The notes beneath the pieces were generated by a model. The model saw nothing but the letters and a program-made list of their open reading frames with translations, was not told the DNA's origin and ran no database searches. The position numbers were made by a program, and so were the translations under genes. From Mycobacteroides abscessus ATCC 19977 (GTDB lineage Bacteria; Actinomycetota; Actinomycetes; Mycobacteriales; Mycobacteriaceae), in contig NC_010397.1 of assembly GCF_000069185.1 (NCBI RefSeq), positions 1,674,001 through 1,738,000 of the forward strand: DNA of 64,000 bases, read 5' to 3'. Positions within the stretch are counted from its first letter, which is position 1, and every line of letters starts with the position of its first letter. This document shows, piece after piece, positions 32,322-54,843 of this stretch.

Positions 32322-32350
32322 TTGACACCGGGCACCGGGATCTCTACGTT
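32322..32350 (+). promoter_or_regulatory. SigA-type promoter of the 22-gene operon
   Basis: TTGACA (32322-32327), a 17-bp spacer, then TACGTT (32345-32350, fits TANNNT). Expected start of transcription is about 32357, inside the downstream palindrome. This is the best-formed promoter in the window. Confidence 0.75.
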
Positions 32351-32352
32351 AT

Positions 32353-32371
32353 GAAAACGATAATCATTATC
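32353..32371. promoter_or_regulatory. Fur/Zur-family operator over the transcription start
   Basis: The core GATAATCATTATC (32359-32371) is a perfect 13-bp palindrome, and the 19-bp stretch matches the classical Fur box at 17 of 19 positions. Mycobacterial Zur sites are AT-rich palindromes of the same style. It lies right after the -10, so a bound repressor would block transcription. Zur is encoded by the adjacent divergent operon. Zur versus FurA cannot be decided from sequence alone. Confidence 0.7.
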
Positions 32372-32407
32372 AATTAAGACTCTGACGCCTACCCGAGGAT
32401 GATCGTG

Positions 32408-33490
32408 ATGGCCACCTTTGCTACCGACACCAATGAGCTGAAGAACATCGATGGCGAAAGTCGGCCGGGCTGGTTTGTCAGCAGACGCGTCGACATCCTC
32501 TTCGTGTTCGGGTTGGGCGCGCTGCTCTCGGCGGTGCTCTTCGCGGCCGACGGGCATAAGGGCGTGTTCCTGGTGGGGGCGGTGGCCTTCTCGCTGCTGT
32601 CCGACCTGCCGCATGTGCTGACGACCACCGCCCGGGTGTGGATGGATCCCCGCGAGCGATCGCGGTACTGGTCGCATTACGTGATCAGCTTCATCGTGGT
32701 CGGCGCGATCGTCGGCACGCTGTGGTTCGGCGGCTGGTTGGTGCCGCTGCTGGCCATCTGGGCCTACTGGCAGGTCTTCCACGTTCTCAAACAGCACTTC
32801 GGCATCATCAACATCTACGCAGCGAAGAACGGCTACAAGGGTCCGCGAAACCGGATCAAGTACGCCTTGTATGGCGTCTGCCTGGCTCCGGTGCTGTTCC
32901 GGGCCAGCCACGGGCTCAATTTCTCCGAGTACGAGGTCTTCGGTCACCGGCTGCCGTTCTCGAACCTGAGCGTCCCGGTGCCGCCCATTCCCGGCTTCTT
33001 GGTCATCGGTGGGTTCGTTTGTGCCGCAGTCCTGTTGGGTGCCGCGCTGTGGGAGCAGGTGCAACTCAAGCGGGCCGGACAACGGACCCTGCCGGCCATG
33101 GCCGTCGCCACCTTTGTGATCGCGGCACTGTCCTACAACCTGTCCTACCTGCTGGTTTCGGATCTGTTCGCACTGATCCTGATCGCCACGACCACCCATA
33201 GCCTGCAGTACCACCTGATCAATTGGACGCGGAACAACACGCGCTTCGCACGCACCCAGGACCCGGGCGAGAAGAAGCTGCTGTTGGCGCGGCTGTCGAC
33301 GCGTAAGGCACTGCCGCTGTATATCGGCTTCTTTGCGGGATTGGGCATCCTGGCCGGACAGCTCGATACGGTCATCTTCGCGGTACCACTGACGTTCGTG
33401 TTGCACCACTTCTACATGGACGGCGCGCTGTGGAAGAGCAAGGGCAATCCGGAGCTGGCGCATGACTTGGGAATTGTCCGTGCTGGATAG
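32408..33490 (+). CDS. His-rich integral membrane protein, first gene of the operon
   Basis: 360 residues with about eight membrane helices. Histidine clusters sit at helix ends: DLPHVLTTTARVW, YWQVFHVLKQHFGIINIY, TTTHSLQYHLINW and LHHFYMDGALWK. Such spacing recalls membrane di-metal oxygenases and hydroxylases (desaturase-like or Brp/Blh-like), but no family is certain. ATG 32408 is preferred because GAGGA lies 8 nt upstream; ATG 32399 falls on that signal. As first gene behind the Fur/Zur box, it is probably strongly metal-regulated. Confidence 0.65.
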   Translation: MATFATDTNELKNIDGESRPGWFVSRRVDILFVFGLGALLSAVLFAADGHKGVFLVGAVAFSLLSDLPHVLTTTARVWMDPRERSRYWSHYVISFIVVGAIVGTLWFGGWLVPLLAIWAYWQVFHVLKQHFGIINIYAAKNGYKGPRNRIKYALYGVCLAPVLFRASHGLNFSEYEVFGHRLPFSNLSVPVPPIPGFLVIGGFVCAAVLLGAALWEQVQLKRAGQRTLPAMAVATFVIAALSYNLSYLLVSDLFALILIATTTHSLQYHLINWTRNNTRFARTQDPGEKKLLLARLSTRKALPLYIGFFAGLGILAGQLDTVIFAVPLTFVLHHFYMDGALWKSKGNPELAHDLGIVRAG

Positions 33491-34658
33491 GGGATTGATC
33501 GAGTCACCGACCCGGCAGCGACAGAGGCGCTCGCCGGTATCGGTGCGTCGCGTCGAATCTCACCGGGATGCCAAGCAATTCATCGCTATGCCATGGCATA
33601 TCTACGGCGACGACCCCCGGTGGCGCCCTACCCTGCGCCGTGTCATGCAGGCGAAGATGAACTCCAAGCACAACCCCCTGCACGGGGAGGTGCAGGTCGA
33701 AAACTTCGTTGCCTACCGTGGCGGTAGCCCTGTCGGACGTATCTCCGCCGCGATCGACTCGGCCTATGTGCAGCGCTACGGCGAGTGCGCGTTCTTCGGG
33801 TTCTTCGAAAGCGAGGACGACGAGTCGATAGCGGGCGCGCTGCTGGGGGAGGCCGAGCGCTGGGCGGCGCGCCGGGGCGTCACCAAAATGGTCGGTCCGT
33901 TCAGCTACACCTCCCGCGAGGAAGTCGGGCTGCTGGTCTCCGGCTATGACAGGCCGCCGGCACTCATGCAGCCCTACAACCCGCGGTACTACCCGGCGCT
34001 GGTGGAGGCATCCGGATACCGCAAGAAGTTCGACACCGCCTCGTACCGTTGGCATCTGGACGGCAGCCAAGATGTTCGGCAACGCCTGGTGCGACGGGCC
34101 GACGCGGTGATGCGCGACCAGGCAGTGACGGTGCGCTCGGTGCGCATGCGCCACTACACCGAGGAATTAGAGCTGCTGCGCGGTCTTTACAACGACTCGT
34201 TCGCTCACCATCCCGAGAACGTTCCCCTCAGCCGCGAGGTGTTCTCGGGGATGGCCGCCGAGATGCGGCCGTTGATCGATCCGAACATCGTCCGGATAGT
34301 GGAATCCGAGGGCACTCCGGTCGGATTCCTACTGATGCTGCCGGATGTCAACGAGATCGCCGGACGGTCCGGTCGGCTCACCCCGGCCCTGCTGGCCCGG
34401 CTGGCGGCGCGCCGCGACGGGCGCATCCGCGGGATCGATACCGCCGTCGTGGTGCTCATCGGCGCGGTGCAGACCCAGTTCGGGGCGGGCATCGGCAGAG
34501 TTCTGGCGGGCGAGATCGTCCGGACGATCACCGGCAGCGGCTATTCCTCGGTCGCCACCACCTGGGTGCATGAGGACAATGTGTGGTCGAATTCGCTTAC
34601 CGCCCAGATGAAGACGGACCCCGAAAAGATCCATCGGGTCTACCAGAAGGCACTGTGA
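33462..34658 (+). CDS. GNAT-like acyltransferase, large two-part form
   Basis: 398 residues. The N-terminal half has FFGFFESEDDESIAGALLGEAERWAARRG and MVGPFSYTSREEVGLLVSGYDRPP; the C-terminal half has GTPVGFLLMLPDVNEI and YSSVATTWVHEDNVWSNSLTAQMK. This is the layout of a group of double-GNAT proteins often found in lipid or secondary-metabolite clusters. It probably acylates an amine using acyl-ACP or acyl-CoA. The start is uncertain: ATG 33462 overlaps the upstream gene by 29 bp, GTG 33480 by 11 bp. Confidence 0.65.
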   Translation: MTWELSVLDRGLIESPTRQRQRRSPVSVRRVESHRDAKQFIAMPWHIYGDDPRWRPTLRRVMQAKMNSKHNPLHGEVQVENFVAYRGGSPVGRISAAIDSAYVQRYGECAFFGFFESEDDESIAGALLGEAERWAARRGVTKMVGPFSYTSREEVGLLVSGYDRPPALMQPYNPRYYPALVEASGYRKKFDTASYRWHLDGSQDVRQRLVRRADAVMRDQAVTVRSVRMRHYTEELELLRGLYNDSFAHHPENVPLSREVFSGMAAEMRPLIDPNIVRIVESEGTPVGFLLMLPDVNEIAGRSGRLTPALLARLAARRDGRIRGIDTAVVVLIGAVQTQFGAGIGRVLAGEIVRTITGSGYSSVATTWVHEDNVWSNSLTAQMKTDPEKIHRVYQKAL

Positions 34659-35638
34659 TGAGCGGCCGGACATTGGTCACCGGTGCCACGGGGTACCTGG
34701 GGTCAACCCTGGTGGCTTCCCTGGTGCAGGCCGGTGAGCGCGTCACCGTCCTGATGAATCCGCACGAACCCGCCGTGCTGCCCGGCGAACTGCGCCCACA
34801 TGTGGAAACTGCGTACGCCGATATCGCCGACGCGCGCGCCGTTGACGACGTGATGCGCGACGTGTCCCACGTCTATCACCTTGCCGGTATCGCATCGCCG
34901 AATTCGCGTCTCGGGCATAGGATCTGGCAGACAAACGTCCTAGGCAGCTATCACGTGGCCCGCGCCGCGCTGCGGCACGGTGTGCAGCGCGTGGTGCACG
35001 TGTCGTCCACCGCGGCCATCGGGTACCCGCCCAACGGTGTGGTGGCCGACGAAGACTTCGACCCATGCGATTCGGTGCTGGATAACGTGTACTCGGCGAC
35101 CAAGCGTGCGGGTGAGCGGCTGATGCTGGACTTCGTCGAACGAGGTCTGGACGTGGTGGTGGTCAACCCCGCCGCCGTGTTCGCGCCGGGAGCGGGGCCC
35201 GCTCGCTCGTGGCAGGGGCTGCTGGTCGCGGCCCGCAAGGGCCTGTTGCGTGTCGTGCCTCCCGGCGGAACCGCGGTGTGCTCGGCTCGCGACTTCGTCG
35301 CGGGCATCACTACGGCGATGGCCAAGGGGGACAACGGGCGCCGGTACATCCTGAGCACCGCCAACCTCTCTTATCGGCAGATCGGGGAGCTGCTGGTGGC
35401 CGCGGTGGGGCGCCATCACCCGGTGCGGCCGGCGCCGATGGGGCTGTTCCGGACGGCGGGGCGGGGCAACCGGCTGCTGCGGGACCTCTCCGGGCGCTTC
35501 GACCCCGACGATGTGTTGGTTGCCGAGAACCTCGAATTGATGGCCCGCGAGTTGTATTACGCGCCCGACAGGGCAGTGCGAGAACTGGGCATACCCAAGG
35601 TCTCTACTCACGAATTGATAGCGGAGTTTGTGCGATGA
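34658..35638 (+). CDS. NAD(P)-dependent epimerase/dehydratase/reductase (extended SDR)
   Basis: 326 residues with the nucleotide motif GATGYLGSTL (residues 8-17), AGIASP, and the catalytic pair Y-x3-K (VYSATKRAGERLM). The rest is typical of NAD-dependent epimerases and of 3-beta-HSD/dihydroflavonol-reductase-like enzymes. A reduction or oxidation of the acyl chain or head group is likely; the substrate is unknown. Junctions on both sides are 1-4 bp overlaps. Confidence 0.8.
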   Translation: MSGRTLVTGATGYLGSTLVASLVQAGERVTVLMNPHEPAVLPGELRPHVETAYADIADARAVDDVMRDVSHVYHLAGIASPNSRLGHRIWQTNVLGSYHVARAALRHGVQRVVHVSSTAAIGYPPNGVVADEDFDPCDSVLDNVYSATKRAGERLMLDFVERGLDVVVVNPAAVFAPGAGPARSWQGLLVAARKGLLRVVPPGGTAVCSARDFVAGITTAMAKGDNGRRYILSTANLSYRQIGELLVAAVGRHHPVRPAPMGLFRTAGRGNRLLRDLSGRFDPDDVLVAENLELMARELYYAPDRAVRELGIPKVSTHELIAEFVR

Positions 35639-36726
35639 GCAGCATGCGCGAAGATCAGCAGGGCAGGCTGACGGTCCAGCCACGGCAGGTGCAGGGCGGC
35701 TCCAAGGAGGCGCTGGGCATATCGATGGCCGACGCGCGAGCACTGGTGGCAGACCTCGCCGCCCGCCGCCAGTGGATCTATTGGCTTGATCTTGCCGCCT
35801 GTCTGGCGGTTGGATACACGGCCTTCCTGTTGTGCCCGGTCGAGAACCTGCTCTCGTTGCCGGCGGTGGCGTGCATTGTGGTGGCGGCGTTCGCTTTCTA
35901 TCGCGCCGTGTTGTTCGTCCATGAGCTGGTGCACGCCGAGGACGACCTGCGCTGGTTCTCGGTGGTGTGGCACGCGGTGTGCGGAATACCTTTCCTGACA
36001 CCGAAATTCACCTTTGAGTTTCATCATGAACACCATGCGTCGCGCACCTACGGCACGGCGGAGGACGGTGAATACGTCACCTATGCCAGTGAGCCGCGCT
36101 GGCGCATCATCGTGTTGCCGTTCAGCGCGCTGGGCGGGCCGCTGGCCTTCGTTTTCCGATTCTTGGTGCTGGCGCCGCTGAGCTGGCTGATCCCCGCGAT
36201 ACGGCCCATTGTGCTGACCCGGGCATCATCGTTGATGATCGATGCCGATTTTGAGCGGCCATTGCCGCCGTCGGGCACCCCACGCTCCTGGCTGGTGCAG
36301 GAAATTGCTTGTTTCGTGTACACCACAACGCTTTTGGTGCTGCTGCTGCTGGGCGCCTACTCGCCGTATCGGCTGGTGGAGGCGTATGCGGTGATCGCCC
36401 TGGCGCTGTTTGTCAACTGGCTACGGGTACTCGTGGCGCACCGGTACGAAGGTAAGAGCGAGCGCATGACCTTTCCCGAGCAGGTTCTCGATTCCATCGA
36501 TCACCCGTCGGTGCCCGTCCTCGGCTCGCTGTGGGCACCGGTCGGCTTGCGTTTCCATGCGGTGCACCACTTCTTCCCTCAGCTGCCTTACCACCAACTG
36601 GGCGAGGCGCGCCGCCGGCTGATGGCGGCGATCCCGCCCGATGCCGGGTACCGGGCCACCGAAGACCGTTCACTCGCCTCATCGCTGCGGCGGCTGCTCG
36701 CCCACCCGCGAAAGGAGGCGGTATGA
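35635..36726 (+). CDS. Membrane fatty acid desaturase
   Basis: 363 residues. The three histidine boxes of the desaturase/hydroxylase family are present: HELVH (96-100), HHEHH (130-134) and HAVHH (308-312), with four or so membrane helices between them. These bind a di-iron centre. Placed in a cluster with a FAAL ligase and ACP, it probably introduces a double bond or hydroxyl into the acyl chain that is attached to the amine product. ATG overlaps the SDR stop (ATGA). Confidence 0.85.
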   Translation: MSSMREDQQGRLTVQPRQVQGGSKEALGISMADARALVADLAARRQWIYWLDLAACLAVGYTAFLLCPVENLLSLPAVACIVVAAFAFYRAVLFVHELVHAEDDLRWFSVVWHAVCGIPFLTPKFTFEFHHEHHASRTYGTAEDGEYVTYASEPRWRIIVLPFSALGGPLAFVFRFLVLAPLSWLIPAIRPIVLTRASSLMIDADFERPLPPSGTPRSWLVQEIACFVYTTTLLVLLLLGAYSPYRLVEAYAVIALALFVNWLRVLVAHRYEGKSERMTFPEQVLDSIDHPSVPVLGSLWAPVGLRFHAVHHFFPQLPYHQLGEARRRLMAAIPPDAGYRATEDRSLASSLRRLLAHPRKEAV

Positions 36727-38045
36727 CCGTCAGTCAATTCACATCCACCGCAAGAGAGTCCGCGGCCGCGACGTACTCACGACGTTTGCCGATCCGGCCC
36801 GTCGAGGCGCGGGGCGCCCGGGTGCGTGCCGAGGACGGCCGCTGGTACGTCGACTGCCTGGCCGCGGCCGGTGCCATGTCGCTGGGCTGGAATCACCCGG
36901 CCGTCAACGAGGCGGTCATGAAGACGGTTTCGTCCGGTGAGCCGCTGTTGTCACTGGACTTTCACACCCCGTCCCGCGACCGGTTCGTCGAGGAGCTGCT
37001 GTCCATCCTGCCGGTCAGGCTTGCCACGGACGCCAGCATCCATCTGTGCTCGCCCAGCGGAGCCAGTGCGGTGGAGGCAGCGTTGATGCTCGCCGAGATC
37101 GCCACCGGTGGCCGCGAACACATTGGTGTGCAAGGTGGTTTTCATGGATGCACCCGAGCAGCGCGTGCCGCCAGTTCCGGGGGCGGGCTGCGCAGGCAGC
37201 CGGTGGTGCTCTCCCCACAGGCGAGCTTCCTGCCGTACCCACAGGAGTACCGCAGCCCTTTCGGGGTGAGCGGTGAACGCGGCGTCGAGTTGGCGATCGC
37301 AGCGGCCGAGGCGGTTGCCCGCCCACACAGCGGCGTCACCGCACCGGCCTCATTGATCGCCGAGTTCGTTCTGGGCGAGGGCGGCGTGATACCGGCGCCC
37401 GCGCGGTGGGGCCAGGCGCTGCGCCGCACGGCGTCGACGCTGGGAGTGCCTCTCATTGCCGACGAGGTACAGGCGGGCATGTACCGCACCGGCCCGGCAT
37501 GGGCATTCCAGCACAGCGGTATCGAACCCGACATGATGGTGATCTCCAAGGGACTCGGGTCTGGTATCCCCATCGCAGTCCTGGTGGTCCGCAAGGAATT
37601 CGACGTCTGGGAACCCGGTGCGTTCACCGGAACCTTCCGTGGGAACGCCATGGCCTTCGCCGCCGCGAGCGCCGTGATCCGCTTTGCGCGGGAGAACGGG
37701 CTGCGCGGGCAGGTGACCGCCCGCGGCAAGATCTTCCTCGATGGCCTGAACGCGGTCGCATCCGATTCGGCGCTGGTGGGTGACGTGCGCGGAGTCGGGC
37801 TCATGCTGGGTGTGGAGATCGTGGACCCCGACATGCCATGGCCGGATGACGCCGGAGCGCCCGCGCCCGAACTTGCCGCCCGCATTCAGCAGGCTTGCCT
37901 GCAGCACGGACTGATCGTCGAAACCGGCGGCCAGTACGGCAACGTGGTGCGGTTCCTGCCGCCACTGACGATCGACGAGCCGGATATCGCCGCTGCGCTC
38001 AACGCGTTTGACGCCGCACTCAGTGCGGTGGAGCGCACGCGGTGA
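36723..38045 (+). CDS. Class III aminotransferase, diaminobutyrate-2-oxoglutarate type
   Basis: 440 residues of the PLP-dependent class III aminotransferases. PLP residues: Asp247 in ADEVQ, Lys276 in MVISKGLGSG, and GSGxSAVEAA at about 112-120. The C-terminal glycine-rich end (VVRFLPPLTI) is typical of diaminobutyrate aminotransferases, which make L-2,4-diaminobutyrate from aspartate semialdehyde and glutamate. The next gene is a matching decarboxylase, which strengthens this. Substrate is inferred, not proven; ornithine or GABA-type aminotransferases are the alternatives. Confidence 0.78.
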   Translation: MTVSQFTSTARESAAATYSRRLPIRPVEARGARVRAEDGRWYVDCLAAAGAMSLGWNHPAVNEAVMKTVSSGEPLLSLDFHTPSRDRFVEELLSILPVRLATDASIHLCSPSGASAVEAALMLAEIATGGREHIGVQGGFHGCTRAARAASSGGGLRRQPVVLSPQASFLPYPQEYRSPFGVSGERGVELAIAAAEAVARPHSGVTAPASLIAEFVLGEGGVIPAPARWGQALRRTASTLGVPLIADEVQAGMYRTGPAWAFQHSGIEPDMMVISKGLGSGIPIAVLVVRKEFDVWEPGAFTGTFRGNAMAFAAASAVIRFARENGLRGQVTARGKIFLDGLNAVASDSALVGDVRGVGLMLGVEIVDPDMPWPDDAGAPAPELAARIQQACLQHGLIVETGGQYGNVVRFLPPLTIDEPDIAAALNAFDAALSAVERTR

Positions 38046-39562
38046 CGGCCCATCAGAGTCCCTTCGTGCAGAGTCCCTTCGTGAGCGACTTTCTCACGGG
38101 CGACAGCGCGCACACGTACCGCGAGGCCGTCGCGCTGGCGGCCGAACGGGCAAGTGTCACACTGGGCGGGGCCACCGCACCGGGACTGGTGGACGGCTAT
38201 TCCGCGCTCAAACGCGATGCCGAGCGGCTCGATCTCGACGATCCCGATGGGGTGGGGCTGAGCCGGGCACTGGACGAGGCTACGGGGTTGCTCGCCGAGA
38301 AATCAGTGGTGGTAACCCATCCCGCATACCTGGCGCACCTACATTGCCCACCCGCATTGCCGTCGCTCGCCGCCGAGGTGCTGATCAGTGCGTTCAATCA
38401 ATCGATGGACTCGTTTGACCAGGCGCCGGCCGCCACCGCGATCGAACAGCAGGTAGTGGAATACTTGTGCACCAGAATGGGTTACGGCCGCGAGTCGGAC
38501 GGTACCTTCACCAGCGGAGGTACCCAGTCGAATCTGCAGGCGCTGCTGCTGGCGCGGGACCTGTTCGCGCGCAAGGCCGGATGGGATATCGCGGGCCTGG
38601 GGCTGCCGCCCGAGTCCGGTACCTGGCGGGTGCTGTGCACCCGGCAGACACACTTCTCGGTGCAGCAGGCACTCCGGCTACTCGGACTGGGCACCTCCGC
38701 CATCATCGAGGTACCCACCGATGATGCGGGGCGGTTGCGGGCCGAGACGCTCGCCGGAATCTTGCGGGACGCCGATCATGCGGGCACACCGGTGTTCGCG
38801 CTGGTGCTCACTGCCGGGACAACGGATTTCGGAGCGATTGACCCGCTCGAGGAAGCCACCGCGATTGCCCGGTCACACGGCATCTGGGTACACGTGGATG
38901 CCTGCGCGGGTGGCTGCCTGATCTTCAGCGCTCAGCACCGGCAGTTGCTGCGTGGTATCGAACAGGCCGACTCGGTCGCCATCGACTTCCACAAGCTGCT
39001 GTTTCAGGCGATCAGTTGCAGCGCGCTGCTGGTGCGCAATCGGGAGAGCTTCGGCGTGCTTGCCGCGCACGCGGATTACCTGAATCCCGCCAGCGACGCC
39101 GAGCACGATGTGCTGAATCTGGTCGGCAACTCGCTGCAGACCACCCGGCGTTTCGATGCGCTCAAGGTGCTGGTCACGCTGCGGGCCGTGGGGCAGCGTC
39201 AGGTGGCCGCGATGATCGATGCCACTGTCGCTGCGGCGGCGGCCGCGGCCCAGGTGGCTGCCGAGCATCCCGACCTGGAACTGGTGGCGCCGGTATGCAC
39301 CAACACGGTGGTGCTGCGCTGGCGGCGACCGGAGGCCACGCGCGACGCGCGTGACGACGTCAACGACGCGGTCCGCGCCGAGCTTGCCCACAGCGGTAGG
39401 GCGATCGTGGGCCGGTCCGGTGCGGCCGGGGCGCAGGCGATCAAACTGACGTTCGTCAATCCTCTGGTCACGACCTCGATGGCGGGCGCGATGGTCTCCG
39501 ACATTGCCGCCCATGGCAACCGGATCTGGCGTGCGCGCACACCGGAGGTCAGTGCCGTATGA
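38042..39562 (+). CDS. PLP decarboxylase, L-2,4-diaminobutyrate decarboxylase type
   Basis: 506 residues of group II decarboxylases. His204 in QTHFSVQQA stacks on PLP, Asp286 in VHVDACAGG binds the pyridine nitrogen and Lys318 in DFHKLLFQ forms the Schiff base. The DxHK motif plus N-terminal SMDSFDQAPAATAIEQQVV fits diaminobutyrate, siderophore-type and tyrosine/DOPA decarboxylases; next to the aminotransferase, 2,4-diaminobutyrate is the best candidate, giving 1,3-diaminopropane. GTG start overlapping the previous stop. Confidence 0.78.
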   Translation: MTAHQSPFVQSPFVSDFLTGDSAHTYREAVALAAERASVTLGGATAPGLVDGYSALKRDAERLDLDDPDGVGLSRALDEATGLLAEKSVVVTHPAYLAHLHCPPALPSLAAEVLISAFNQSMDSFDQAPAATAIEQQVVEYLCTRMGYGRESDGTFTSGGTQSNLQALLLARDLFARKAGWDIAGLGLPPESGTWRVLCTRQTHFSVQQALRLLGLGTSAIIEVPTDDAGRLRAETLAGILRDADHAGTPVFALVLTAGTTDFGAIDPLEEATAIARSHGIWVHVDACAGGCLIFSAQHRQLLRGIEQADSVAIDFHKLLFQAISCSALLVRNRESFGVLAAHADYLNPASDAEHDVLNLVGNSLQTTRRFDALKVLVTLRAVGQRQVAAMIDATVAAAAAAAQVAAEHPDLELVAPVCTNTVVLRWRRPEATRDARDDVNDAVRAELAHSGRAIVGRSGAAGAQAIKLTFVNPLVTTSMAGAMVSDIAAHGNRIWRARTPEVSAV

Positions 39563-40269
39563 GCAACAACCTGGCGCGCGTCGAGCGCGTTGCGGCATCC
39601 GATGCTCGCTTCGCCTGGGCCAAGAACATCGAGTTCGCGATCTTCGGGTTGGAGAACGACTTTGCCGACGATGTCGATATCGCCGCGGGGGAGATGGTGC
39701 ACTACCGCCCGTGGGAGCGGTCCTCGGAAATCTATGTGGGCTTCTCGGGCGACTCACCCGAGCACCCGGTCGGTGTACTGAGATCGCTTCGGCACGATCC
39801 CGAACTGGGGCTTGCCAGCTTCAGTACCCTGCGCGACGCAAGAAGCTACCGGGATGGAAACAAGACCGCCCGCAATTACCTGTATCCGCACTGGGAGTCG
39901 TTCTTTGGCGGGATTGCTCCGGAGCGTATCGCGGAGCTTGCCACCCAGGGCGTGCGTAAGAAACACCGTCGCGCCGGGATGATCGAGCAGATCTGGCGGG
40001 AGTTCTTCGGTGCTCTGGCCGCAGAGGGAGTTCAGTTTGTGACGGTCGCCCTGGTGGTGCCGCTGTTCGACTGGTATCAGCATCTGCTGCCCGACCGTCT
40101 GCACCAGATCGGCGACATCCTGCCGAACTACATCGGCGCCGACAGTGTGCCGGCCGTCGTCGACATCAGCGGGTCCTTCGTCCCGGACGCCTCCCGCGCC
40201 GTTGATGACGCCTCCCTGCTGGCCGCCACCACCACCCCCTCGTCCCCCAAGAAGGAAAGAGTCCGATGA
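39559..40269 (+). CDS. FeeM/LuxI-like N-acyltransferase (GNAT fold)
   Basis: 236 residues. Segments EIYVGFSGDSPEHPVGVLRSLRHDPELGLASF and KKHRRAGMIEQIWREFFGALAAEG follow the layout of acyl-homoserine-lactone synthase and FeeM-type N-acyl amino acid synthases, which take an acyl chain from acyl-ACP and join it to an amine. With an ACP and a diamine pathway in the operon, it is the natural enzyme for the amide bond. The tail after about residue 205 is Ala/Ser/Thr-rich and likely disordered. Confidence 0.55.
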   Translation: MSNNLARVERVAASDARFAWAKNIEFAIFGLENDFADDVDIAAGEMVHYRPWERSSEIYVGFSGDSPEHPVGVLRSLRHDPELGLASFSTLRDARSYRDGNKTARNYLYPHWESFFGGIAPERIAELATQGVRKKHRRAGMIEQIWREFFGALAAEGVQFVTVALVVPLFDWYQHLLPDRLHQIGDILPNYIGADSVPAVVDISGSFVPDASRAVDDASLLAATTTPSSPKKERVR

Positions 40270-40772
40270 GATCGATTCACACCGAAGAGCATGTGTTCCG
40301 CAAGGTCAGCGAGATCGACTGTCCCGTAGACAAAGTGTGGGAGCGGGTGACCACCCAAGAGGGCATCAATGACGAGATGGGCCCGTACATGAAGATGACC
40401 ATGCCCAAGCAGTTCCGCGGCAAGTCCATCGCCGATGTCACGCCGGGCACCCGCATCGGTAAGAGCTTCCTGCTCCTTTTCGGGGTGCTCCCGTTCGGGT
40501 TCGATGACATCACGGTGGCGCGGCTCGAACCCGGCCGGATGTTCCGGGAGGAGTCACTGATGACAGGGATGCGGATATGGGTACACCACCGCACCCTGGA
40601 GCCCTTGGGGGACAAGACAATCGTCACCGACGAGGTCACCCTGGCCCCGCAGGCTCCCATGGGTCTGATCCCCGGCTGGGGCAGACTGCTGAGCAAGATC
40701 TTGGCGGCCTTCTTCACTCACCGGCACCGTCGCCTGAGCCGCACCCTTTCCGCCACGGGAGTTCCGCGATGA
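40266..40772 (+). CDS. SRPBCC (START-like) domain protein
   Basis: 168 residues: a single helix-grip domain (VSEIDCPVDKVWERVTTQEGINDEMGPY ... GDKTIVTDEVTLAP) with a basic C-terminus containing RHRRLSRTL. SRPBCC proteins bind hydrophobic ligands or act as cyclases. It could carry or modify the lipid intermediate. No catalytic residues can be assigned. Confidence 0.65.
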   Translation: MRSIHTEEHVFRKVSEIDCPVDKVWERVTTQEGINDEMGPYMKMTMPKQFRGKSIADVTPGTRIGKSFLLLFGVLPFGFDDITVARLEPGRMFREESLMTGMRIWVHHRTLEPLGDKTIVTDEVTLAPQAPMGLIPGWGRLLSKILAAFFTHRHRRLSRTLSATGVPR

Positions 40773-46919: not shown

Positions 46920-46920
46920 G

Positions 46921-48429
46921 GTGCTGAATCGCCGTGATAGCCACCACGATCTAGATGGTGCCGTGTTCTCGCGCCGTCAACTGCTGGTGCGCGGGGGCGC
47001 CGCGCTGGCTCTCGTCGCCGTCCTGACGGCGGGACTGCTGATCAAGTCGACCGGGGTGCTGGACCGATACGTGAATGTCATCGCGGACCTGCACAACGTC
47101 GGCGATGGGCTGCCGCCGCGCTCGGACGTCAAATACCGGGGAGTGCTCGTCGGCGCCGTGGACGGGGTCACGCCGTCGGCGGGCACGCAGCCCAATCGGG
47201 TTCGGGTGCGGCTAAAACCCATGTACGCCCGATCGATTCCCGCCACCGTCACCGCGCGAGTGGTACCCAGCAATGTGTTCGCCGTCTCGGCCTTACAACT
47301 CGTCGACCATGGGCCCGGAGCGCCCATTCGCGAGGGCGGGCATATCGCCGAGGACACCCGACTGCCTACCGTGTTGTTCCAGACGACCGTCAACAAGCTG
47401 CGCCAGATCTTGACCGCGGCCGGCCGCGGCCGCGAGGACAACACCGTGGGGATTCTGGCGGCGGTCGGGGCCGCCACCAATCATCGGCGCGCCGAACTGC
47501 TCACCAGCGCCGCGCAACTGGACCGCATGCTGGATCAGCTCAACGCCATCGTCGCGACCGACCAGGGCCCCTCGACGGTCTCGGCGTTGGTGCAGGCCGC
47601 ACACGGACTCTCGCAGACCGCACCGGATCTCGTCGATGCCCTGCATCAGGCGGTGCGCCCCATGCAAACCCTGGCCGAGAAGCGCGAGCAGCTGCGCACA
47701 TTCATCGGCGCCGGGGTACAGACCACCGGCACCACGGTCCGGTCCCTGCACAATCACACCGACCAGCTCATTCAGATCACCACCGATCTGACCCCGGTAC
47801 TCGGTGTGCTGGCCGACAACGCGCAGCACTTCGTGCCGATCACCCGGCGTATCACCAGGTTTTCTGACACCTTTTTCCGGGAGGTGTGGGATCCGGAATT
47901 GGCCACTGCCAAGGGACGGGTGAACCTGTCCTTCACCCCGTCGTATACCTACACCCGGGCCGACTGCCCACGGTACGGGGAACTCAAGGGGCCCAGCTGT
48001 TTTACCGCCCCGCAGATCGCGGTGCGCCCGGACCTTCCGGAAGTACTGCTGCCACAGAACTATCAACCACCGGCCAATCTGGCGCCGCCGCCGGGAACCG
48101 TGCTCGGCGACAACGGCAATCTCATCGCGGTGGGTCCACCGTTGGTCAACCCGAACCCTGACCTGCGTGACCCGAACCCGCCGGTGCCGCCGTGGCTCAC
48201 TCCCGCACCGCCGGTGCCGGGCAGCGCCGACCCCGGCCAGATCCTCACCGCACCGGCATCGTTCGGCGGCAACGTCGGCCCGGTCGGCAGCACCCAGGAA
48301 CGCGGTCAATTGGGGCAAATCCTGGGGCAGCCGGCCACATCGGCAGACCAACTGGTGCTGGGCCCCCTCGCCCGGGGCACCGTCGTGACACGCGCCGCAG
48401 ACCCACATGAGGAAGGAGGAGCCCGATGA
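46921..48429 (+). CDS. mceA: Mce family protein, MceA position
   Basis: 502 residues: a membrane anchor (about residues 30-50), an MlaD/Mce domain (LHNVGDGLPPRSDVKYRGVLVGAV), a long helical region that builds the lipid tunnel, and a Pro-rich C-terminal extension of about 120 residues (APPPGTVLGDNG; DPNPPVPPWLTP). The internal Cys pair (DCPRYGELKGPSCF) is typical. GTG 46921 is chosen, 1 bp after the yrbEB stop. Confidence 0.85.
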   Translation: MLNRRDSHHDLDGAVFSRRQLLVRGGAALALVAVLTAGLLIKSTGVLDRYVNVIADLHNVGDGLPPRSDVKYRGVLVGAVDGVTPSAGTQPNRVRVRLKPMYARSIPATVTARVVPSNVFAVSALQLVDHGPGAPIREGGHIAEDTRLPTVLFQTTVNKLRQILTAAGRGREDNTVGILAAVGAATNHRRAELLTSAAQLDRMLDQLNAIVATDQGPSTVSALVQAAHGLSQTAPDLVDALHQAVRPMQTLAEKREQLRTFIGAGVQTTGTTVRSLHNHTDQLIQITTDLTPVLGVLADNAQHFVPITRRITRFSDTFFREVWDPELATAKGRVNLSFTPSYTYTRADCPRYGELKGPSCFTAPQIAVRPDLPEVLLPQNYQPPANLAPPPGTVLGDNGNLIAVGPPLVNPNPDLRDPNPPVPPWLTPAPPVPGSADPGQILTAPASFGGNVGPVGSTQERGQLGQILGQPATSADQLVLGPLARGTVVTRAADPHEEGGAR

Positions 48430-49493
48430 GAGGCACGGCGGCACGCGGCCCGCTGATCGGGCTGGCCGTCTTCCTGGTCATCGCCACGGCGCTGACCTGG
48501 CTGGTGTATGTGACCCTGCGCCGGGATGTCAAGGGTGCCACGGTGTCCTACGGAGCGATGTTCACCGATGTCTTCGGGCTGCGTGAAGGCGACGATGTGC
48601 GGATCGCAGGTGTGCGCGTCGGGAGGGTCCAGCACATCGAACTCGTCGGAACCACCGCGAAGGTGAGCTTCGCGGTCCAGGACGGTCAGCGCCTCCCCGC
48701 CAGCATCAACGCGTCGGTGACCTACCAAAACATTGTGGGCCAGCGTTATCTCGCGTTGACGCAGACGCACCCGGACCAGGGTGGTCTGCTCGCGCCAGGT
48801 GCGGTCATCCCCGTCGAGCGCACCGAGCCTTCCTTCGATATCGGCACCCTGCTCAACGGCTACGAACCACTTTTCGCGGTGCTGGATCCCGCACAGGTGA
48901 ACAACCTCACCCAGGCCGTCATCGGGTCGCTGCAGGGCGACACCGCGGCCTTCGCCACCCTAGTCGACCAGACCTCAACACTGACAAAGACATTCACCGG
49001 GCGTGATGATGCCCTGGATCATGTCATCGCGAGCCTGGACACGGTGGTGGGCACTCTCGCCGCGCAGAACCGCGATTTCGAGGACGCCATCGGCGCGACC
49101 CGCCAGGTGGTCGATCACTTCGACAGTCGCCGTCCCGAGTTGGTGTCCTCGGTGGGAAAGATGACCGAAGTGGTCAGGAATCTGTCCCGGATCGCCCGGG
49201 ACGTGGACCCCTCCGTGCACGAATTACTCACGCGCGAACCCGGATACACCCGTCACATGCTGGATATCGAACCGCAGATCGCCTACACGGGCCTCAATAC
49301 ACCGCTGTTCCTCAAGGGCCTGGCACGCATGTTCGGGGAGGGCGCCTACATGAATGCCTACGCCTGCGATGTGAACCCCTACGGATTCTTCCCGGGGCTC
49401 AATGAGGTCGTCCCGATCATCGTCGACGCGGCCACTCCGGGAAACAAGGCGAAGCACACCGCACGGTGCAGAAACGCGGGAGACGGTGGCTGA
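48426..49493 (+). CDS. mceB: Mce family protein, MceB position
   Basis: 355 residues with an N-terminal anchor (LIGLAVFLVIATALTWLVYV), the Mce domain (VFGLREGDDVRIAGVRVG) and a helical tail. ATG overlaps the mceA stop, preceded by AGGAAGGAGG, a very strong SD. Confidence 0.87.
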   Translation: MRGTAARGPLIGLAVFLVIATALTWLVYVTLRRDVKGATVSYGAMFTDVFGLREGDDVRIAGVRVGRVQHIELVGTTAKVSFAVQDGQRLPASINASVTYQNIVGQRYLALTQTHPDQGGLLAPGAVIPVERTEPSFDIGTLLNGYEPLFAVLDPAQVNNLTQAVIGSLQGDTAAFATLVDQTSTLTKTFTGRDDALDHVIASLDTVVGTLAAQNRDFEDAIGATRQVVDHFDSRRPELVSSVGKMTEVVRNLSRIARDVDPSVHELLTREPGYTRHMLDIEPQIAYTGLNTPLFLKGLARMFGEGAYMNAYACDVNPYGFFPGLNEVVPIIVDAATPGNKAKHTARCRNAGDGG

Positions 49494-49494
49494 G

Positions 49495-50511
49495 ATGATC
49501 AGGCCGCTGGACTCATACAACAAGACTTGGCTCGGTGTCGCGGCCGTGGCCGTTGTCGCCGCGCTCATCGGTGGCCTGCTGCTGGTGAAGCAACTGGGCA
49601 TCGGATACCGGCAATTCACCGCGGAATTTCTGCAGGCGGCCGCGTTGCGCCCGGGAAACATCGTCACCGTCGCAGGGGTACAGGTCGGTTCGGTGACCGG
49701 CGTGCGGTTGGCGGGTGATCGTGTTGAGGCGACCTTCCGGGTGCGTGACAACATGGCGGTCGGCACCGATTCGCGCGCCGCCATCAAGATCACCACCCTG
49801 TTCGGCTCGCGATACGTCGACCTGAGGCCCGCAGGCGCCGGGACGCCGGCAGGCCGGCGGATCAGCCTGCAGCACACCGAAGTTCCTTACGACTTGCAGG
49901 CCGCGCTGGCCGACTCTACCCGCACCTTCGAGCAGGTCGACGCCGACCGCATCGCCTCCTCGCTCAACGTGCTGGGCACTCAGCTGGATGGGTTGCCCGG
50001 TGTGGTGCCCCAGGCCATGGAGAACGTGCGTGCCCTGTCCGCGGTCATCGCGCAACGGCGCGAACAATTGGGCACGTTGCTGACGAGCACCGAGAACGTC
50101 ACCAGCATGCTGCGTCGCCAGCAGTCCGACATCGGCACCTTTATCCGGCAAGGACAAGAACTGGTGGGTGAGTTCGTGGCGCGCTCGGCGGCCTTCCACG
50201 CGATGATGCGCTCGCTACAGAGCATCGTGGCGTCACTGCGCACCATCGTGGTCGGTGATCACCGTGCGCTCGACGGCGTCATCCACACCCTGGAGGAGCT
50301 CAGTGGCAAGCTCGCCGACCAGGATGCCTTGCTGCGCAACCTGCTCCAGATCGCGCCGGTGCCCATTCGCGAGATCGCCAATGCCACCGGATTCGGCAAC
50401 TCGATCGAGGGTAACCCCGGCGGCGGCGCGCTCATCGACTCGTGGATGTGTGCGATCAGTGGCCGGGCCAAGCAATTTGGGATGATCGAGTACTTCAAGG
50501 ACTGCCAGTGA
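49495..50511 (+). CDS. mceC: Mce family protein, MceC position
   Basis: 338 residues: anchor WLGVAAVAVVAALIGGLLLV, Mce domain (ALRPGNIVTVAGVQVGSV), then the helical region. ATG 49495 lies 1 bp after the mceB stop; an in-frame extension to 49402 lies inside mceB. Confidence 0.87.
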   Translation: MIRPLDSYNKTWLGVAAVAVVAALIGGLLLVKQLGIGYRQFTAEFLQAAALRPGNIVTVAGVQVGSVTGVRLAGDRVEATFRVRDNMAVGTDSRAAIKITTLFGSRYVDLRPAGAGTPAGRRISLQHTEVPYDLQAALADSTRTFEQVDADRIASSLNVLGTQLDGLPGVVPQAMENVRALSAVIAQRREQLGTLLTSTENVTSMLRRQQSDIGTFIRQGQELVGEFVARSAAFHAMMRSLQSIVASLRTIVVGDHRALDGVIHTLEELSGKLADQDALLRNLLQIAPVPIREIANATGFGNSIEGNPGGGALIDSWMCAISGRAKQFGMIEYFKDCQ

Positions 50512-51617
50512 CCACGATTCGTAAGATGCTCCTGATATGTCTGGGGCTGGCCCTGGCCGCGACGACGGCGGGCGCGGCATGGTCCGTCACCCGGGACCGT
50601 GGAACCATCACCGTCACGGCCCAATTCGACAGCGCCGCGGGCCTGTATCCGGGAAATGTGGTGGCAGTCCTCGGCATGCCGGTGGGGCAGGTCTCTAAGA
50701 TCACCGCCCGGGGCGGCTACGCCGAGGTGGAGTTCACGGTGGACAGCCAGGTGAAGGTGCCCGCCGACGCCCAGGCCGTCACGCTCTCGACGTCGATCCT
50801 GACCGACCGCCAGATCGAGCTGTCCCCGCCGTATCGCGGCGGACCTGAACTGCGTGACGGCGACACCATCGGCCTGAGCCGCACACGGACGCCCGTCGAA
50901 TTCGACCGGGTGCTGGGCATGCTCGACAAACTCTCCGGGTCCCTGCGCGGTGACGGTGCCGGTGGTGGGCCCATTGCCGCGGTGCTCAACGCGGGCGACG
51001 GTGTGGCCGCGGGCAATGGTGATCGCATCAAGACGGCGCTGGACGAGTTGTCGCGGGCCTTGCGGCTGGGCGCCGACGGTGGGGCGCACACCCGCGAACA
51101 GATGACGGCCATCGTCAAGAACGTCAGTGGCCTACTGGACGCGGCGGCCCGCAATGACGCGAGCCTGCGTCAGTTCGGTTCGACGGTACGACAGCTCAGC
51201 GATGTGCTGGCCGATGAGAATTTCGGGTCGGGCAACACCGGGCGGCAGTTCAACGAGGTGATCGAGCAGACGGGGAATATCTTGCAGGCCAACCGGGATG
51301 CGATCCGGCGTGGTATTGCCAACGGCAACAAGAGCATCCAGACGGTGTATGACCGCCAGCGGGAGGTCGCCGAGTTCTTCGATGTGTTGCCGCTGATGGC
51401 CGACAACCTGTACAACGCCATCGACCAGCGCAACGGCGCCATCCGGGCGCACTTCCTGGCCGACCGCATGGTGTTCGACGGCCAGATGGCCAAGGAGATC
51501 TGCAATCTGATGGGCTTGCGACAACTCGGCTGTAGCACCGGGACACTGCAGGATTACGGCCCCGATTTCGGGCTGACCTACATGCTCGACGGTCTTGCGG
51601 CGATGGGGCAGAAGTGA
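50508..51617 (+). CDS. mceD: Mce family protein, MceD position
   Basis: 369 residues: anchor MLLICLGLALAATTAGAAW, Mce domain (AGLYPGNVVAVLGMPVGQV) and helical region, with CNLMGLRQLGC near the end. GTG start overlaps the mceC stop (GTGA). Confidence 0.87.
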   Translation: MTTIRKMLLICLGLALAATTAGAAWSVTRDRGTITVTAQFDSAAGLYPGNVVAVLGMPVGQVSKITARGGYAEVEFTVDSQVKVPADAQAVTLSTSILTDRQIELSPPYRGGPELRDGDTIGLSRTRTPVEFDRVLGMLDKLSGSLRGDGAGGGPIAAVLNAGDGVAAGNGDRIKTALDELSRALRLGADGGAHTREQMTAIVKNVSGLLDAAARNDASLRQFGSTVRQLSDVLADENFGSGNTGRQFNEVIEQTGNILQANRDAIRRGIANGNKSIQTVYDRQREVAEFFDVLPLMADNLYNAIDQRNGAIRAHFLADRMVFDGQMAKEICNLMGLRQLGCSTGTLQDYGPDFGLTYMLDGLAAMGQK

Positions 51618-52747
51618 TGGGCCGCGGATTGCCGGTGTTTCTCGCCGTCGTGCTGCTGAGCGCCGGATGTTCCACCGGCGGGCTGGCCGACCTGCCGCTG
51701 CCAGCCCCGGGTCTGGGCGCCGGGGGATACCGGCTCACAGCGGTTTTCGCCAATGCGCTCAACCTCCCCGAGCGCGCCAAGGTGAAGCTCGCCGGAGCCG
51801 ACATCGGCGAGGTGGAGTCCATGGCCGCCGTCGACTTTCGTGCGGTGACCACTCTGCGTATTCGGCATGACGTCACTCTGACGGCGGGCAGCACCGCGCA
51901 GTTGCGCACGGCCACACCGCTTGGCGATGTTTTCGTGGCCATTACGCCGCCGGACCAACCCGGCACCGGCATGCTCGCCGACGGCGACACCATTCCCATA
52001 GACCAGACCGGTGCGGCGGCGACCGTCGAGTCGGTGCTCAGCTCGGCGGCGATCCTGGTGAACGGGGGCGCGGTGCACAACCTGACCAACGTCGTGAACG
52101 GCACGGGCAGGGCAGCGGGCCAGGACGGTCAGGCCTTCGGGCGCATGATCGGAAAGTCCAACGAGCTGCTGGGCAAGCTGAACGCGCGGTCGGGGCAGCT
52201 GGATGCCGCGATGACCGAGACGGCTCAGCTGGCCCGGGCGCTGGATGGCAAGAGCGCCCAGCTCGGGCAGGTGCTACACGCGGCGGCCCCGGCAACGGCG
52301 ACATTGCAGGAGAACGCCGGTCAGATCTCCGATCTGGTGCTGCTGTTGGGTGACACCGCACGCGAGTTGGGTAAGTTCCCTTCCATCGCGGGCACCGACA
52401 CCAGCGGGCGCAGCGTGGTCGCCGACGCCAACGCGATTTCCCGGTCCTGGAACGACGTGGTGCTGGACCCGGAGACCAGCCTGCTCTCACTGAATCGGCT
52501 GTACGCGCCGTTCATCAAAATTACTGCGGGATCGGCTATTTCCGGGCGGGCGGGTATCGATCGCCTGGTCCTGGGCGCGATCCCGGACGCCGGATTCGGG
52601 GGAGATCCGGGCTTCCACGGCCCCAAGCGGTACGACTGGGCGAAGTTCGTCGGGACCATCAAGTACTCGTTGTGGCGGCTACAAGAACGCGTCGTCGGGC
52701 AGGGGCCCGCAGCGCAGGGCTTCGGTGTGCAAGGCCCCACCCGATGA
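51617..52747 (+). CDS. mceE: Mce family lipoprotein, MceE position
   Basis: 376 residues. Signal peptide with lipobox LSAGC (Cys about residue 17), the lipoprotein feature of MceE. Mce domain ALNLPERAKVKLAGADIGEV follows. GTG 51614 is an alternative start that overlaps mceD by 4 bp. Confidence 0.87.
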   Translation: MGRGLPVFLAVVLLSAGCSTGGLADLPLPAPGLGAGGYRLTAVFANALNLPERAKVKLAGADIGEVESMAAVDFRAVTTLRIRHDVTLTAGSTAQLRTATPLGDVFVAITPPDQPGTGMLADGDTIPIDQTGAAATVESVLSSAAILVNGGAVHNLTNVVNGTGRAAGQDGQAFGRMIGKSNELLGKLNARSGQLDAAMTETAQLARALDGKSAQLGQVLHAAAPATATLQENAGQISDLVLLLGDTARELGKFPSIAGTDTSGRSVVADANAISRSWNDVVLDPETSLLSLNRLYAPFIKITAGSAISGRAGIDRLVLGAIPDAGFGGDPGFHGPKRYDWAKFVGTIKYSLWRLQERVVGQGPAAQGFGVQGPTR

Positions 52748-53943
52748 GCCGCGCCTGGGCCAGCGGCCTGTCTCTCGTTTTCCTGCTGGTGGTTTCAGTC
52801 ACCTACCTGTTGGTGGGCGTGCTGCACGTGCGGCCATTGGCGTCGAGCTATCCGCTGACCATCCAACTTGCCGAATCCGGCGGACTGCTGCCCAACCAGG
52901 ACGTGACGCTGCACGGGGTACGGATCGGCTCGGTCGACTCATTGACCTTCACCGGAACCGGTGTCAACGCGGTCGTGAACGTCGACGGCGGTGTGCGGGT
53001 GCCCGCGTCCGCGGTGGTGCGGGTTTCGGGGCTGTCGCCGGCCGGCGAGCAGTACCTCGACTTCTCGGCGGGATCGGACACCGGTCCGTTCCTGACCGCG
53101 GGTGACGTGATCACCCGGGATCGCACCGACATCCCGGTGACCCCGGCGCAGCTGCTGTCCCACGCCGATGGTGTGCTGGCACAAGTAGATCCGTCGAAGA
53201 TCGAGCGCATCAAGAAGGAACTGAGCCTGAGCGCCGCGGGGCCGCGCAAGCTCACCGACATCGTCGACGGCGGGGTGTTCTTGTTGGCCACCCTGGATTC
53301 GGTTCTGCCCGAGACGGTTAGCGCCATCAAGGACAGCCGCACGGTGTTGTCGGCGGCGGTCGATGTCAACGGGGGCATCGCGGCCACCGCACGCAATCTG
53401 CGCGGCACTCTCACGGGTATCAATGCCATGGACGGGGGCTACCGCACACTCATCGGCCAGGCTCCGCAGGTTCTGCACGCCGCCGACAAGCTTTTCGACG
53501 ACAACTCCGACACCATGGTGCAGCTGCTGGCCAACCTGGCCGTGAACGCGCGGCTGTCCTATGTGCGGGTGCCGGCGCTGAACGCCTTGTTCCCCAACTA
53601 CCGCGGTTCGGCGCTGGAGGCGTTCATCAGCACCATGCATGACTACGGGCTATGGGTGACCGCCGACCTGTATCCGCGGTATGCCTGCGATTACGGCACC
53701 CCGCGGCACCCACCCTCGGCGGCCGACTACCCGGAGCCGTTCCTGTATACGTACTGCCGCGACGACGATCCCGCCATCCTGGTGCGCGGCGCCAAGAACG
53801 CCCCGCGCCCGGCGGGGGACGACACCGCCGGGCCGCCGCCCGGCGCCGACCTGGGCGCCAGGTCCGACCCGACGCCGCCGGGCCGCTACACCATCCCGAC
53901 GCCCTACGGTGGGCCGGCGCTGCCCATCGAGCCACCGAGGTAG
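52744..53943 (+). CDS. mceF: Mce family protein, MceF position
   Basis: 399 residues: anchor (LSLVFLLVVSVTYLLVGVL), Mce domain (GGLLPNQDVTLHGVRIGSV), helical region and a Pro-rich end (GPPPGADLGARSDPTPPG). ATG overlaps mceE (ATGA). It completes a six-member Mce set. Confidence 0.87.
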   Translation: MSRAWASGLSLVFLLVVSVTYLLVGVLHVRPLASSYPLTIQLAESGGLLPNQDVTLHGVRIGSVDSLTFTGTGVNAVVNVDGGVRVPASAVVRVSGLSPAGEQYLDFSAGSDTGPFLTAGDVITRDRTDIPVTPAQLLSHADGVLAQVDPSKIERIKKELSLSAAGPRKLTDIVDGGVFLLATLDSVLPETVSAIKDSRTVLSAAVDVNGGIAATARNLRGTLTGINAMDGGYRTLIGQAPQVLHAADKLFDDNSDTMVQLLANLAVNARLSYVRVPALNALFPNYRGSALEAFISTMHDYGLWVTADLYPRYACDYGTPRHPPSAADYPEPFLYTYCRDDDPAILVRGAKNAPRPAGDDTAGPPPGADLGARSDPTPPGRYTIPTPYGGPALPIEPPR

Positions 53944-54843
53944 ATGATGCCGGCCAACAATTCGCAACCGCGCCCGTTGTCGGCCGCCAGCCGCGCCGTG
54001 CACACCCGCCGCATCGCGTTCACCTTCGATCGGTCCGCGCCCTCGCGGCGGCACTTCATGGCCGGCGATATCGCCATGAGTCATCTGGTGGCGCTGTTGT
54101 CGGGGTTCTTCCCGTCCGGGGAAGAGTTCTTCATCCAGTCGGTGCGGCGCTACGACCGGCAGATCCTCGACCCGGTGCTCAAAAAGCAGGTCGCGGGCTT
54201 CATCGGGCAGGAGATGACGCACGGAATGCAGCACCGCGAACTGAACACCCAGCTGGTGCGTCGTGGCTACTGGGCGACCGGGCTCATGGATCGCGTGGGC
54301 ACCCGACTGGTCAAGCGCATGAAACAGCACCGGGAGCGGATGCCGGATACCGTCGCCCGGGCGGCGCTTGCCGTCACCGCGGGGGTGGAGCACCTCACCG
54401 CGATTCTCGGGGAACAAGTGCTCAGCGTGCCCTGGATACAGCAGCAGCTGACCGACCCCGAGGTGCGCGCGATGCTGAACTGGCATGCCATCGAGGAGAT
54501 GGAACACAAGTCGGTGGCCTTCGACGTGTACCGGTACGTCGGCGGGACCGAGCGGATGCGTATCGCGGCGATGGTTCTCACGCTGGGGCTCTTCCTGACC
54601 CGGACGGTGATCCTGCTGGCCTCGATCGTCACCGATCCGTGGGCCTGGCGCCGCCCCGCGCGGACCCTGCGCAGCCTGGCAACCCTGCCGCGCACCCCGC
54701 TGTTCGCGGGGCTGGGAGCTAAGATTCGCTGCTACCTGCGGCCCGGCTTCCATCCCGACGACATCGACCATGGCCCTTTGCTCGAGAAGTGGCGCGAGGA
54801 GTACTTCGGTCCCGAGGGCACCCTGCTGGACCATCTGAAGTAG
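53944..54843 (+). CDS. Ferritin-like predicted metal-dependent hydrolase, last gene of the operon
   Basis: 299 residues. Metal-ligand pattern of the PF10118-type family: FIGQEMTHGMQHREL, GVEHLTAIL and WHAIEEMEHKSVAFD, arranged as a ferritin-like helical bundle with Glu and His. A hydrophobic helix (MVLTLGLFLTRTVILLASIV) follows. Members are often named metal-dependent hydrolases without proof; a di-iron oxidase is equally likely. ATG directly follows the mceF stop, so it belongs to the operon and could modify the imported or exported lipid. Confidence 0.75.
   Translation: MMPANNSQPRPLSAASRAVHTRRIAFTFDRSAPSRRHFMAGDIAMSHLVALLSGFFPSGEEFFIQSVRRYDRQILDPVLKKQVAGFIGQEMTHGMQHRELNTQLVRRGYWATGLMDRVGTRLVKRMKQHRERMPDTVARAALAVTAGVEHLTAILGEQVLSVPWIQQQLTDPEVRAMLNWHAIEEMEHKSVAFDVYRYVGGTERMRIAAMVLTLGLFLTRTVILLASIVTDPWAWRRPARTLRSLATLPRTPLFAGLGAKIRCYLRPGFHPDDIDHGPLLEKWREEYFGPEGTLLDHLK

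Follow-up and report, generated by a model that had tools for sequence, protein, structure and literature searches.

A candidate Zur-controlled zinc metallophore system with an acyl-diamine product and Mce-type return in Mycobacteroides abscessus

The kupyaphore (diisonitrile lipopeptide) pathway was proposed for zinc, but its knockouts revealed a need for it when copper, not zinc, is scarce (PMC9600254), which leaves the question of a mycobacterial zinc metallophore open. An operon of Mycobacterium abscessus has been labelled 'putative Zn-siderophore biosynthesis and transport' in a study which reported a zur-box before MAB_1680, and in which RNA-seq showed that expression of all 22 genes fell by 3.6–10.3 log2 upon exposure to a compound that carries zinc (PMC8951752). 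Here we analyse this gene run in a 64,000-nt stretch of M. abscessus ATCC 19977 (NC_010397.1, positions 1,674,001–1,738,000; hereafter the window, to which all coordinates refer unless another locus is named), where 22 plus-strand genes lie head to tail at 32399–54843, behind a match to the box of the zinc regulator, and their order agrees with that of MAB_1680–MAB_1701 in Table 2 of PMC8951752. We give an even chance to the reading that the run is a Zur-controlled system for an acyl-diamine zinc metallophore, made without a nonribosomal peptide synthetase (NRPS) and returned to the cell by an Mce transporter. The metallophore idea is already in print as an annotation of this operon (PMC8951752), and the remark in an earlier note on this DNA, that its author knew of no described system with this exact combination, is therefore not supported as it stands; we found no study of the product and no targeted knockout in the literature. 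New here are the route, the recurrence across genera, the exchange of transport genes and the predicted acyl-homoserine lactone (AHL) synthase/FeeM-like fold of MAB_1686.

The genes of the run are the following.

32399–33490, plus strand: MAB_1680, polytopic membrane protein of an unnamed family, putative membrane metal-dependent oxidase
33462–34658, plus strand: MAB_1681, 398-aa GNAT-family protein and second putative acyltransferase (PF00583, 24.2 bits, cut-off 20.7)
34655–35638, plus strand: MAB_1682, extended short-chain dehydrogenase/reductase (SDR), epimerase-type (PF01370, E 2e-30)
35635–36726, plus strand: MAB_1683, membrane enzyme of the fatty-acid desaturase type (PF00487, E 6e-22)
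36723–38045, plus strand: MAB_1684, class III aminotransferase, L-2,4-diaminobutyrate aminotransferase-like
38042–39562, plus strand: MAB_1685, pyridoxal phosphate-dependent decarboxylase, L-2,4-diaminobutyrate decarboxylase-like
39559–40269, plus strand: MAB_1686, N-acyltransferase with a predicted LuxI/FeeM fold
40266–40772, plus strand: MAB_1687, SRPBCC-like protein, possibly lipid-binding
40769–41512, plus strand: MAB_1688, lipoprotein, called from its VAAC lipobox sequence
41516–42454, plus strand: MAB_1689, DrrA-like ATP-binding cassette (ABC) ATPase, presumably for export (PF00005; TIGR01188, 228 bits, cut-off 312)
42451–43221, plus strand: MAB_1690, ABC-2 permease, presumably for export (PF01061, E 2e-11)
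43239–43514, plus strand: MAB_1691, acyl carrier protein (ACP) with DSL motif (PF00550, E 2e-13)
43511–45196, plus strand: MAB_1692, fatty acyl-AMP ligase-like (FAAL-like) protein
45193–46919, plus strand: yrbEA and yrbEB (MAB_1693, MAB_1694), Mce permeases of the MlaE/YrbE type (PF02405, E 2e-55 and 4e-55)
46900–53943, plus strand: mceA–mceF (MAB_1695–MAB_1700), with six MlaD matches above cut-off
53944–54843, plus strand: MAB_1701, PF10118 protein, likely accessory (E 4e-68)

The 21 junctions measure, in order, −29, −4 (seven times), +3, −4, +17, −4, −4, −4, −20, −4, +1, −4, −4, −4 and 0 bp; these lengths depend on the start codons chosen in our analysis. With 4-bp overlaps at 15 of the 21 and a range of −29 to +17 bp, they bear out the earlier description of a 22-gene run with mostly 4-bp overlaps and no gap above 17 bp. 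The start proposed there, 32322, coincides with the opening T of a TTGACA box, where no gene begins. The Pfam scan took in 18 of the 22 proteins, and MceB–E were covered by the MlaD search only; the domain scans recovered the GNAT, SDR, desaturase, aminotransferase, decarboxylase, ABC-2 exporter, ACP, ligase, YrbE and Mce proteins that the note had named. The second GNAT (39559) has no significant Pfam match in the window protein and owes its name to the predicted fold and to its relatives; for the window protein, SRPBCC (40266) is a weak call (Polyketide_cyc2, PF10604, E 0.055), and 11 of 12 aligned orthologues match that family at E up to 1 (best 4.8e-4). For the 'ferritin-like' protein at 53944, the basis is the Pfam family PF10118, 'predicted metal-dependent hydrolase'.

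A search for the same gene set in other genomes, which the earlier note had suggested, found a 13-gene synthesis and export core in constant order in 19 genomes including that of the window, from Mycobacterium-type bacteria, Segniliparus and Nocardia. By title, the 15 related contigs comprise three of Mycobacteroides, five of Mycobacterium sp., four of Mycolicibacterium, one of Segniliparus rugosus and two of Nocardia, and genomes G779, G792 and G1021 complete the set. The gaps in the core are few: MAB_1688 has no match in L032 and G792, the decarboxylase is missing in G792, the ligase of L033 lies beyond the contig end, and the MAB_1681 match of Segniliparus is split in two pieces. The PF10118 gene MAB_1701 was absent after mceF in all seven other genomes read there and is thus likely accessory; a 69% relative lies upstream of the operon in Mycolicibacterium peregrinum (L029:729-1583), and there is a short 65% match in L027.

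The region in front of MAB_1680 carries the following features.

31102–31560, minus strand: zur, Fur-family regulator, divergent neighbour of the run (PF01475 FUR, E 5e-32)
31557–31916, minus strand: smtB, ArsR-family zinc sensor (PF01022 HTH_5, E 6e-15)
32322–32350, plus strand: promoter-like site TTGACA-17-TACGTT, its hexamers and 17-nt spacing identical in 13 of 19 loci
32349–32371, plus strand: Zur box match, with the core palindrome GATAATCATTATC at 32359–32371

The main clue, which the earlier note had passed over, is the presence of zur and smtB upstream together with a Zur-box match that overlaps the promoter-like site, itself below the threshold of a consensus promoter scan; the metallophore logic proposed in that note gains support from the box. 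The 13-base palindrome GATAATNATTATC has its single exact copy in the 5.09-Mb genome here, and with up to two mismatches there are 29 genome sites against 8 for the reversed control. PMC8951752 quotes a 21-base Zur consensus for the Mycobacteriaceae, from which the window box differs at one position. All 16 loci of a first set carry a match to this consensus, with no more than one mismatch, before the first gene (0.3–3.3% of random 250-nt windows taken from the respective locus match equally well), as do three of three further loci (2.3–5.3% of random 300-nt windows), although the match of L110 is weak and lies 297 nt upstream. Hence all 19 loci have a candidate Zur-regulon promoter, as judged by sequence. 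zur (MAB_1678c; PMC6734328) is likely the regulator of the 22-gene run, and an orthologue of 87–95% identity occupies the same place in six of the 15 related loci (L019–L024). Elsewhere in the genome, GATAACCATTATC at G000:C2:1055662 (L010) is the only other site within one mismatch of GATAATNATTATC, and is possibly another Zur target.

Behind the core, two MlaE/YrbE permeases are followed in order by six MlaD/Mce proteins, the arrangement of an Mce transporter. The slot after the ligase gene holds yrbE/mce genes of the window's lineage in 14 genomes and of another lineage in three Nocardia. In Segniliparus rugosus it holds a PE gene (PF00934) and a PPE gene (PF00823, PPE-PPW), each sharing 4 bp with the preceding gene (L031:15689-17550), and no yrbE/mce gene was found within 5 kb after the ligase gene; for N. 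pseudobrasiliensis (L033) the contig is cut off before this slot. Trees were built for YrbEA and YrbEB from 17 operon rows and 15 others. In them the Nocardia rows group with other paralogues, and a single clade of operon rows was rejected (p 8.6e-9 in the YrbEA tree and 2.4e-40 in the YrbEB tree, with long branches in play), so that an Mce importer must have joined this operon, or been exchanged in it, more than once. A second recruitment and a replacement by another Mce lineage look alike, and either speaks for coupling. The repeated pairing of core and Mce argues that the Mce system handles the product of the core, and we take these observations as evidence that the slot after the ligase serves transport of that product. 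For the PE-PPE pair, ppe1 lies within the nrp operon and its loss sensitises cells to copper, not zinc, starvation (PMC9600254, PMC12213770), which offers a precedent for a PPE protein alongside a lipid metallophore. Contig G000:C2 has 43 MlaD matches, corresponding to roughly seven mce sets in the genome.

The FAAL-like ligase gene adjoins the ACP gene, so that an adenylate-forming ligase and an ACP occur together as in the nrp pathway. The best PDB rows of MAB_1692 include FadD23 with 198 bits, and the highest-ranking row that bears the name of an ordinary CoA ligase has 85 bits. For MAB_1686, the ten best VIA-align rows of the predicted structure are AHL synthases and FeeM, at about 10% sequence identity, which points to a fold of this kind. 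This comparison of structures upholds the likeness to LuxI/FeeM claimed in the earlier note, ordinary GNATs trailing by a modest margin. The window protein has no Pfam match, that of an autoinducer synthase included, and among 22 relatives, six match PF13444 and eight PF00583 with E values of up to 1. Transposon insertions in MAB_1686 and MAB_1690 have been reported (PMC10465359). Orthologues of the other putative acyltransferase, MAB_1681, are 46–93% identical.

Among the amine-making and tailoring enzymes, MAB_1684 scores 470 bits with NF005393 (cut-off 671) and 375 bits with TIGR00709 (cut-off 402), with 6rl5 as best PDB match, and MAB_1685 scores 390 bits with NF052646 (cut-off 900) and matches PDB 2qma at E 6e-100 with the DFHK motif aligned. 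The histidines of the three boxes of MAB_1683 are invariant across 10 aligned sequences, and the lipobox cysteine of MAB_1688 is kept in 10, four of which begin at this residue. MAB_1680 has no significant Pfam or NCBIfam match; its histidines 72, 128, 267, 272 and 337 are invariant in an alignment of 24, and its matches in 396 genomes of the phylum and 397 of the order are weak outside the genus of the window. Neither an NRPS condensation domain nor the IucA/IucC synthetase and SidA/IucD N-hydroxylase expected of a hydroxamate or NRPS-independent siderophore pathway was matched among the 18 scanned proteins.

We propose the following mechanism. With ample zinc, the run would be repressed by Zur at its promoter, and zinc shortage would lift this repression, in line with the published RNA-seq. 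The amines 2,4-diaminobutyrate and 1,3-diaminopropane would come from MAB_1684 and MAB_1685. A fatty acid would be activated by MAB_1692 and passed to MAB_1691, and MAB_1686, possibly together with MAB_1681, would link it to the amine through one or two amide bonds. Modification of the chain, or formation of the metal ligand, would fall to MAB_1683, MAB_1682 and the new-family protein MAB_1680. Export would be the task of the DrrAB-like pump and the lipoprotein; outside the cell the product would likely capture zinc, and the loaded molecule would return through YrbE/Mce. The directions of the transporters are what we infer; read so, biosynthesis, exporter and importer stand together under metal control, as expected of a metallophore system. 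The synthesis-export-import operon of the earlier note thus stands as a unit of ligase, ACP, LuxI/FeeM-like transferase, diaminobutyrate enzymes, exporter and Mce, with its head group left unfixed. In its most specific form the proposal becomes doubtful, and we offer it tentatively: an NRPS-free counterpart of the diisonitrile lipopeptides, with a diaminobutyrate/diaminopropane scaffold acylated at one or both nitrogens by the LuxI-fold transferase and the second GNAT, MAB_1681, a metal ligand made by MAB_1680 as a His-rich membrane oxidase of a new family, and the first metallophore imported by Mce, a role that two Mce lineages would have been enlisted to fill and that a PE-PPE pair would have taken over in Segniliparus.

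A number of observations weigh against this proposal. The zinc ligand is not readable from the gene set, and a plain N-acyl diamine is expected to bind zinc poorly. The predicted model of MAB_1680 has a confidence score (pLDDT) of 85 and no credible fold match in the PDB. Both the aminotransferase and the decarboxylase score under the curated cut-offs of the families after which they are named, and the Nocardia operon of G792 (L112/L113) is without a decarboxylase gene, so that 1,3-diaminopropane, a head group named in the earlier note, is not fixed. (A 43%-identical decarboxylase homologue lies outside that operon at G792:C1:618400, with no aminotransferase match in the surrounding 19 kb.) The best NCBIfam family of MAB_1692 is NF005850, 'long-chain-fatty-acid--CoA ligase', at 756 bits and above cut-off; for MAB_1686, the top Foldseek row is an ordinary GNAT, and in the structure comparison the AHL synthase EsaI scores under an ordinary GNAT. 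Three YrbEA paralogues elsewhere in the genome are 70–76% identical to that of the operon, and therefore this Mce subfamily is not pathway-specific. As to zinc control, zur and smtB are neighbours only in the window and L019–L024 (seven of 19 loci; in the others about 1.4–3 kb of upstream DNA was covered), and the shorter palindrome is not conserved in Segniliparus and Nocardia, with three to four mismatches that 3.7–12.7% of random windows equal. Expression also responds to other conditions, MAB_1693–1699 being up 6.2–7.2 log2 in biofilm (PMC8586431) and MAB_1681–1698 being among the hypoxia-induced, putatively DosR-dependent genes (DosRS; PMC10034137). Moreover, matches to MAB_1686 are uncommon: strong ones (E < 1e-80) occur in 17 of 346 Mycobacterium genomes including that of the window, and 150 Nocardia genomes gave four strong matches and one weak one. 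The same Mycobacterium genomes gave seven weak rows and one lone relative in G279, which is included in the matches of a family sample (four of 301 genomes); genomic context was read for part of the MAB_1686 and MAB_1680 matches. This lone relative (G279:C10:131012-133336, L060/L061; 46–48%) adjoins an acyl ligase, and the rest of the core is without matches there.

The main rival explanation is a zinc-sparing envelope lipid, in which an acyl-amine lipid made by zinc-starved cells would replace or re-tune another in the outer envelope and be recycled by Mce, with no metal carried. Zur regulons include zinc-free replacement proteins (PMC8951752, PMC6103462), the ligase, ACP and desaturase would suit a structural lipid, and the induction in biofilm and hypoxia fits as well. 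However, a structural lipid would not need a dedicated importer alongside an exporter, and the importer slot of Segniliparus holds PE-PPE genes, as the nrp metallophore operon likewise holds a PPE gene. We consider this explanation unlikely, although it deserves serious attention. A less probable alternative, and one we would not expect to hold, is that two modules share one switch, the core making a metallophore and the Mce system importing unrelated lipids as fuel or building blocks in zinc stress. The Mce subfamily does have paralogues with no core nearby, and Segniliparus has the core with no adjacent Mce; even so, two Mce lineages at the same position behind the ligase can hardly be chance twice. 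That the metallophore serves copper or several metals rather than zinc is very unlikely: diisonitrile lipopeptides, elsewhere reported as zinc kupyaphores, do act as copper chalkophores in knockouts (PMC9600254), but here the box of a zinc regulator precedes the core in every lineage seen and the RNA-seq response was driven by zinc (PMC8951752). An acyl-amide signal sensed at low zinc, suggested by the AHL synthase fold predicted for MAB_1686, is the least credible of all, because no LuxR-type receptor was found among the 18 scanned proteins, a 13-gene core with pump and importer would be heavy for a signal, and FeeM, of the same fold, makes N-acyl amino acids.

Because synthesis, export and import lie in one unit, single gene removals can test the zinc metallophore reading. 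The run thus makes testable how these bacteria find zinc and what the cargo of one Mce importer is, and it introduces the MAB_1680 family of membrane proteins, without a Pfam match or a credible match to a solved fold. Downstream, the glyS frame is open from 54844 (54844–56364); the glycine-tRNA ligase model begins at residue 47, and the true start is therefore probably later, with a gap after MAB_1701. A second class III aminotransferase gene follows glyS at 56378–57772, outside the run.

Among described systems, the operon of PMC8951752 is the same one in the same species, with its zur-box and zinc-responsive expression; its treatment in the accessible text of that paper is a label, and product, route, comparative genomics and a transport argument do not appear there. 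The nrp operon of M. tuberculosis and M. marinum comes next, as it makes a lipid metallophore whose acyl chains are delivered by FadD10, an adenylate-forming ligase comparable with MAB_1692, and it has a PPE gene like the Segniliparus version of the present operon (PMC9600254). In contrast, nrp uses an NRPS, whereas no condensation domain was found in the 18 scanned proteins here, and it responds to a lack of copper rather than zinc, with zinc limitation raising its induction further only if copper is scarce too; the accessible text names no Mce genes for it (PMC9600254). Coelibactin, ethylenediamine disuccinate (EDDS) and pseudopaline have Zur-controlled biosynthetic genes, as here (PMC6103462). 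FeeM and the AHL synthases share the fold predicted for MAB_1686, at the low identity given above. Rhizobactin-type siderophore pathways combine a 2,4-diaminobutyrate aminotransferase, a decarboxylase and an N-acyltransferase; the present run shares these three predicted functions, but has no IucA/IucC or N-hydroxylase match in the scanned proteins. For coelibactin, EDDS and pseudopaline, we know of no ligase/LuxI-like acyl-amide logic or Mce importer. The Mce1 and Mce4 lipid importers consist of YrbEA/B and six Mce proteins, the same set as found here; the cargo here would be the operon's own product, and if this is true, an orphan Mce system gains a defined, self-made cargo.

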